A stretch of 64,000 nt of DNA from the NCBI GenBank assembly GCA_003282985.1, contig QBYE01000001.1, forward strand, positions 62,001-126,000. The letters run 5' to 3'. Below, piece after piece: positions 4,554-5,980 of the stretch (positions are counted from its first letter, which is position 1; the number at the start of each line of letters is the position of its first letter). The notes under the pieces were generated by a model, which was given only the letters and a program-made list of their open reading frames with translations, was not told the DNA's origin and made no database searches. Source of the stretch: Pelagibacteraceae bacterium AG-325-E08 (GTDB taxonomy: Bacteria; Pseudomonadota; Alphaproteobacteria; Pelagibacterales; Pelagibacteraceae). The translations under genes and the position numbers were made by a program.

Positions 4554-4781
4554 TTAAAAATTTGATGAATTAGATAAAATTTCTTTATTAATGATTTGAG
4601 ATTTTGCAAAAGCTGCTCTTTCAGATTTTAAATTTCCAAATTTAGCGATAAATTTATTTCTCTCTCTCACATATTGAACCTTAACAACAAAGTATAAAGA
4701 TAAAAAACTTAAAAGTGTAAATATAAAAGATGATAAAACATAAATGCCATATCCATTCATAAAAAGTATTTCATTAATCAT
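4554..4781 (-). CDS. ccmD: Small membrane protein, CcmD-like heme exporter subunit
   Basis: 75 aa, single TM (NGYGIYVLSSFIFTLL), located between ccmC and ccmE. Confidence 0.7.
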   Translation of the reverse strand: MINEILFMNGYGIYVLSSFIFTLLSFLSLYFVVKVQYVRERNKFIAKFGNLKSERAAFAKSQIINKEILSNSSNF

Positions 4782-5485
4782 AATCTATCTAAGCCTTTAT
4801 TTTTAATTTTTATCAGTTCTGTATTATATTTCATCAAAAAAATAAGTAATGAGAACAGGGCAAATGCCGCAGTCATTATAAATAATGGAAATAACATTGA
4901 TGAATGAATCGATGTTTTTGATAATATGTTAATTGAAGCAGGTTGATGGAGTGTATTCCACCAATCAACTGAATATTTTATTATTGGAATATTTATAATT
5001 CCCAAAATTGTTATTATTGAAGTAATTTTATATAATTGTTCTTTGTTTTCATAAATTCTCCAAGCAAGTAAATACATTAAATAAAATAAGGCTAAAATTA
5101 ACATAGAAGTTATTCTTGCATCCCAAGCCCACCAAGTTCCCCAGGTTGGTTTTCCCCAAATAGAACCTGTAACCAGTGCTATTATATTAAACACAAAACC
5201 TGATGGAGCTAAACTTTTTGCAATTAAAAAGAAATTTTTAATCTTAAAAATGTATCCTAAAATTGATAAAAAGGTAATTGAGGAAAAAATACCAAGTGTG
5301 ATCCAAGCTGCAGGAACATGAACATACATAATTCTTACAGCATGACTTTGTTTATAATCTTCAGGAGATAAAATTAGAGCTTCAGTTAATCCTACTGACA
5401 AAACAACAATAAATAAAAATAAAACATATTTTGGAGCTTTAGATGTAACAGAAAAGATTTTATTAGGTTCTAAAAGCTTAAACAT
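4778..5485 (-). CDS. ccmC: Heme exporter protein CcmC
   Basis: MYVHVPAAW and GKPTWGTWWAWDARITS (WWD) motifs, six TM helices. Confidence 0.95.
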   Translation of the reverse strand: MFKLLEPNKIFSVTSKAPKYVLFLFIVVLSVGLTEALILSPEDYKQSHAVRIMYVHVPAAWITLGIFSSITFLSILGYIFKIKNFFLIAKSLAPSGFVFNIIALVTGSIWGKPTWGTWWAWDARITSMLILALFYLMYLLAWRIYENKEQLYKITSIITILGIINIPIIKYSVDWWNTLHQPASINILSKTSIHSSMLFPLFIMTAAFALFSLLIFLMKYNTELIKIKNKGLDRL

Positions 5486-5534: not shown

Positions 5535-5626
5535 CTGATCAAGAATGTAGAGGGAGATAATAACGAAGGGTAATAAAAACACTCTTGATCAGGATTATTT
5601 AAATTAAAATAACCCTGTGACCAAGA
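5535..5626 (-). ncRNA. Putative structured RNA element (overlapping alternative hairpins) between hspQ and ccmC
   Basis: Hairpin I pairs 5535-5548 with 5579-5592 (14 bp). Hairpin II pairs 5583-5600 with 5607-5626 (18 bp, 2-nt bulge) and is followed on the minus strand by GTGTTTTTATT. The hairpins share 5583-5592. All three non-Watson-Crick pairs are G-U only if transcribed from the minus strand. Confidence 0.5.
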
Positions 5627-5659
5627 TTTGAATTAAATGTGTTTAAAAAGTGATTTTTT

Positions 5660-5980
5660 TTAATTTGACGGTTTAAAATAGCTAGATCCCTTTTTTCCGG
5701 AGAATATTTCCTCAATTAGAGGGTGTTTTATGGGTTCATCAGAGTCGTCCATTAACAAGTTTTGCTCTGATACATAAGCCTCATAAGTAATTTCATCATT
5801 TTCAGCTAGAAGATGATAAAAAGGTTGATCTTTTTTCGGTCTAACATTTTTTGGGATTGATTGATACCATTCCTCAGAATTATTAAACTCGAAATCAACA
5901 TCATAAATAACACCTCTGAACTCAAAATGTTTATGCTTTACAATGTCTCCTATTGAAAATTTAGCTTTTTGAATTGGCAT
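5660..5980 (-). CDS. hspQ: Heat shock protein HspQ
   Basis: AKFSIGDIVKHKHFEFRGVIYDVDFEF...QPFYHLLAENDEITYEAYVSEQNL is characteristic of HspQ/YccV. Confidence 0.92.
   Translation of the reverse strand: MPIQKAKFSIGDIVKHKHFEFRGVIYDVDFEFNNSEEWYQSIPKNVRPKKDQPFYHLLAENDEITYEAYVSEQNLLMDDSDEPIKHPLIEEIFSGKKGSSYFKPSN

Follow-up and report, generated by a model that had tools for sequence, protein, structure and literature searches.

Three complementary segments lie between hspQ and ccmC in the SAR11 (Pelagibacter-type) DNA studied here, a stretch of 64,000 nucleotides that we call the window, and the question is which of their pairings matters and what it serves. No marine bacteria are more abundant than SAR11, whose transcription factors are very few, so that much of their regulation falls to RNA leaders. 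Both genes are on the minus strand, hspQ at 5660..5980 and ccmC, the first gene of ccmCDEFGH, at 4778..5485, with the hairpin in between. Read along this strand, the segments are A (UCUUGGUCA, 5626-5618), A′ (UGAUCAAGA, 5591-5583) and B (UCUUGAUCA, 5544-5536), and re-reading the window bore out the sequences and coordinates given for all three in the preliminary description. The two folds described there also form in the window genome: A:A′ as an 18-bp hairpin with a 2-nt bulge (−17.9 kcal/mol alone) and A′:B as a 14-bp stem with a 30-nt loop (−17.1 kcal/mol alone). When the region was folded in context, A′:B was preferred, with −25.4 kcal/mol compared to −19.6 kcal/mol with A:A′ forced. The proposal of a structured RNA on the minus strand was supported as well, since folding of this strand gave z = −4.20 against dinucleotide shuffles, with 0/200 shuffles as good, compared to z = −0.75 for the plus strand, and a covariance model scored 81.7 bits on the minus (sense) strand of the window genome and 36.1 bits on the reverse. 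Many pairs of the A′:B stem are G-U on one strand only.

We gathered hspQ–ccmC spacers from 146 loci of the genus, which represent 136 distinct sequences, and tested A′:B for covariation on 69 diverse sequences with 500 shuffles, five measures and a slid-partner control. In the window, the stem joins CUGAUCAAGAGUGU (5579..5592, minus strand, which includes A′) to ACAUUCUUGAUCAG (5535..5548, minus strand, which includes B), and the loop between them (5549..5578, minus strand) is 30 nt long, with 22-36 nt in relatives. Over the 69 relatives, 99.3% of cells in the 14-bp stem were paired, and the alignment revealed compensatory changes in A′:B, with both sides changed in 8 of the 14 pairs (33 cells). 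None of the 500 shuffles reached any of the five measures, and pairing dropped to 28-41% when the partner was slid; the A′:B pairing is far above chance. The sequence of both arms is highly conserved within the genus. RNAalifold, applied to a wider region, predicted the A′:B stem and no other structure. A covariance model search returned one strong locus per genome in the genus, and the strong matches in a sample of the order were all within the genus; when 10 genus genomes that had no match to the model were checked, a ccmC match was present in 0/10. By this sequence comparison, the minus-strand RNA A′:B is real and conserved.

At every genus locus extracted, and in other genera too, ccmC has the hairpin ahead of it. 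As stems of different genera were not alignable with MAFFT, each was folded separately and then compared. In four further genera of the family (g6-g9), the same position at six ccmC loci is again taken by a hairpin of 12-15 bp, whose arms are different yet complementary: their sequence is almost wholly different, and, compared with the window, 9-12 pairs have changes in both partners. All six (6/6) carry CUCCCU in the loop. At one locus (L197) the upstream gene is not hspQ, yet the leader hairpin precedes ccmC, and it therefore belongs to ccmC and not to hspQ, which is the usual neighbour but is not required. The start codon of ccmC is 49 nt past the hairpin in the window (median 48 in relatives), and a constant position upstream of one gene family, also without hspQ, is what a cis-acting leader would be expected to show. 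In family f2, ccmC directly follows another ccm gene, which reads as ccmB, and there is no such leader. Ahead of the cytochrome c maturation operon, the leader RNA is apparently kept throughout the Pelagibacteraceae genomes examined.

Upstream of the hairpin lies a rigid box, AACACATTTAATTCAAATCTTGGTCA (5618..5643, minus strand), which we take as a promoter or activator site and whose last nine bases are element A. In 133 of 136 sequences this box aligns without gaps, and the spacing AACA-N9-C-N8-GNCA-N11-TA is found in 126/136 genus sequences and at 6/6 other-genus loci. The −10-like hexamer TAATTT (TANNNT; 5601..5606, minus strand) is fixed 11 nt after GNCA, with its T and A each present in 132/136. 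Length variation begins only past TANNNT, the end of which is 7-14 nt from the stem, mostly 9-11. Rigid spacing upstream and free spacing downstream are as expected for a promoter followed by an RNA, and the box with TANNNT looks like a dedicated, predicted ccm promoter. The −35 match is poor, and a sigma-70 scan was at shuffle level. Transcription would start at about 5594, at the hairpin base, and element A, which lies upstream of this likely RNA start, is thus probably not part of the ccmC transcript.

Because the box is unique in the window genome (1.0 Mb), no regulon points to its regulator; a box regulon was rejected, as the next matrix matches fell inside coding regions (homoserine dehydrogenase-like and rpsS-like genes). 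We also rejected the box as a CenR site, given that the CenR motif is TGA-N8-TGA and that Pelagibacterales lack CenKR (PMC9275681). Within the box, CA steps recur every 11 bp (window 5643-5601, minus strand), with weak self-similarity and no second copy in the genome. Sites of OmpR-family response regulators typically have this arrangement, which would fit a regulator of that family, e.g. PhoB, ChvI or EssR (SAR11 systems listed in PMC10746171).

The loop holds the motif CUCCCU (5551..5556, minus strand), in the genus mostly as UUAUCUCCCUC. CCCUC is present in 136/136 distinct genus sequences and CUCCC in 131/136, and CUCCCU is single-stranded in the hairpin in all genus sequences but five and in each of the six hairpins from other genera. 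Neither the ccmC leader nor the first 300 nt of ccmC contains a conserved GGGAG complement to the loop, and cis pairing of the loop with the leader or gene start was rejected on this ground. A leader peptide was rejected too: the ORF from the commonest start-like codon ranges from 1 to 33 codons across relatives, and the leader lacks the conserved short ORF of a leader-peptide attenuator. As there is no conserved cis complement of the loop and no conserved leader peptide, a trans partner, either protein or RNA, is likely.

Comparison at the sequence level brings out the stem, the invariant CUCCCU, the RNA strand and the rigid box with TANNNT. With somewhat better than even confidence, we propose that ccmCDEFGH has a dedicated promoter and a 5′-terminal RNA hairpin, whose CUCCCU loop is recognised by a putative trans partner. 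Transcription would start 1-5 nt before the stem, so that the ccm mRNA would begin with the hairpin and include A′ and B, not A. The hairpin would cap the 5′ end of the mRNA and present CUCCCU to the trans-acting partner, perhaps a protein that binds RNA or else an RNA with GGGAG, and the binding of this partner would determine how stable the ccmC message is or how it is translated.

The hairpin could instead serve solely as a passive 5′-end stabiliser, which shields the mRNA from decay and has no specific partner. Its place at the predicted 5′ end, the few unpaired nucleotides there and a stem sequence that is free to vary all suit such a role, but an invariant CUCCCU in a loop of 22-36 nt is not needed for stabilising, and we regard this explanation as unlikely, though still of some weight. 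The E. coli ompA mRNA has a 5′ stabilising hairpin. The ccmC leader would resemble it in its place right at, or close to, the 5′ end of the mRNA; the invariant loop motif sets it apart.

Another possibility, to our mind an improbable one, is that the hairpin acts as a 5′-derived trans-acting small RNA, either set free or in addition to its leader role, with CUCCCU pairing to G-rich Shine–Dalgarno (SD) sites in other mRNAs, in the way of the AbcR M1 motif CUCCCA. The AbcR1/AbcR2 sRNAs of Alphaproteobacteria carry a CUCCC-type motif (M1 = CUCCCA) single-stranded in a hairpin (PMC5461406), and this core motif is shared by the ccmC leader, where it is single-stranded in the hairpin as well; the AbcR motif is the nearest functional likeness of the ccmC loop. 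However, the AbcR RNAs are free sRNAs with two motifs (CUCCCA and GUUCCC), Hfq-type regulators of ABC transporter mRNAs (PMC5461406), whereas here a single hairpin stands in the ccmC leader, with no terminator and no M2 seen. A conserved terminator of its own, as expected of an AbcR-type free sRNA, was seen neither in the genus nor in other genera, where no adjacent U-run straight after the B stem was found, and the kept distance to ccmC points to a leader. As for targets, the proteorhodopsin SD, GAGGGAG, is invariant in 29/29 genus genes and is a perfect complement of the loop CUCCCUC (the gene of the window genome is at L259:3332-3931, minus strand), and in genome G457 the loop CUCCCUU pairs with the SD AAGGGAG. 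Against this, loop and SD have a mismatch in genome G030, the f2 genomes have G-rich proteorhodopsin SDs without the leader, aprA and sufC were rejected as conserved trans targets since GGGAG at their sites is not conserved, and many SDs match any anti-SD-like loop. A dual RNA, which would head the ccm mRNA and also pair through its CUCCCUC loop with the GAGGGAG ribosome-binding site of proteorhodopsin, is very improbable because the leaderless f2 genomes have a G-rich site too; if it were real, cytochrome c making and a light-driven pump would be traded off directly through RNA. Separately, GGAGATAA occurs at the ribosome-binding site of five genes (L246:15707 and 1715, plus strand; L214:15297, L239:1860 and L243:520, minus strand), one of them periplasmic binding-protein-like, and has 8 nt complementary to the loop UUAUCUCC, a complementarity that may be only SD likeness.

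Transcription attenuators exchange a terminator for an antiterminator. The preliminary description suggested that A:A′ could terminate hspQ and that a switch of A′ between A and B could control read-through into ccm. A:A′ is a strong hairpin in the window genome and is followed there by GUGUUUUUAUU, and in this one genome three complementary segments can be drawn as in an attenuator. Among relatives, however, 61.4% of the A:A′ cells are paired, 3/136 sequences have a perfect nine-base core, and alignment yielded covariation at shuffle level. The U-run is missing from most relatives, which have GUGUUAAA in place of GUGUUUUU, a terminator scan found none at this locus on the minus strand, and A is part of the rigid, promoter-like DNA box. 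Thus, unlike an attenuator, the ccmC leader conserves one of the two mutually exclusive pairings, A′:B covarying and A:A′ not, and has no conserved intrinsic terminator (stem and U-run). Neither the hspQ terminator nor the switch is supported by this comparison, and we find the model hardly credible; the link of A′:B to ccm is supported, whereas control through refolding between A:A′ and A′:B is not. Seen against its relatives, A:A′ is an accident of the window's strain group and could form only in transcripts that read through from hspQ.

That the arms are a protein-binding DNA palindrome, as inverted repeats highly conserved in the genus might suggest, deserves almost no credence, as many pairs are G-U on one strand only, the covariance model prefers the sense strand (81.7 vs 36.1 bits), the arms are swapped wholesale between genera yet stay complementary, and the loop varies in length.

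The 5′ leader hairpin that we favour has counterparts among the structured leaders of Pelagibacter (SAM-V, glycine riboswitch, rpsB, ffh and rhtB motifs; PMC2704228), each likewise a conserved RNA that precedes a single gene family in the same organisms; two of them, the ffh and rhtB motifs, are single hairpins too. It differs from these in that there is no ligand-pocket-like conservation and only the loop hexamer is invariant. With just one hairpin and, in its loop, one conserved hexamer, the leader is unlikely to be a riboswitch. The main text of Meyer 2009 (PMC2704228) makes no mention of ccmC, and searches of a literature collection found no paper describing the hairpin. An Rfam search, as the preliminary description had suggested, gave no family at the gathering threshold for the window locus and no matches for seven relatives; at E up to 10, there were only sub-threshold snoRNA-like and other chance matches, and the rest of the window held one tRNA only. 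The general kind is familiar, but the ccmC leader itself seems to be a leader-RNA motif not described before.

The hairpin is also carried by ccmC of HTCC1062 (genome G451, which we take as HTCC1062). In excerpts of the tables of PMC5069961, the mRNA of this gene (SAR11_0287) is 10.35-fold up in S-limited stationary phase vs exponential phase and 4.74-fold up in S-limited vs control stationary phase, and these excerpts include no ccm gene besides ccmC. The sulfur response fits regulation at the leader's promoter or at the leader itself, and could act wholly at the promoter. The leader is a concrete, testable element in the search for the cause of the ccmC mRNA increase that HTCC1062 shows when sulfur is limiting. 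Among the loci compared, ccmC at G024:C1:26576-27281 (minus strand) is broken by stop codons, which suggests an assembly error or a broken gene, and hspQ of genome G061 (L005:2367-2685, minus strand) is split over two reading frames through either assembly error or decay.
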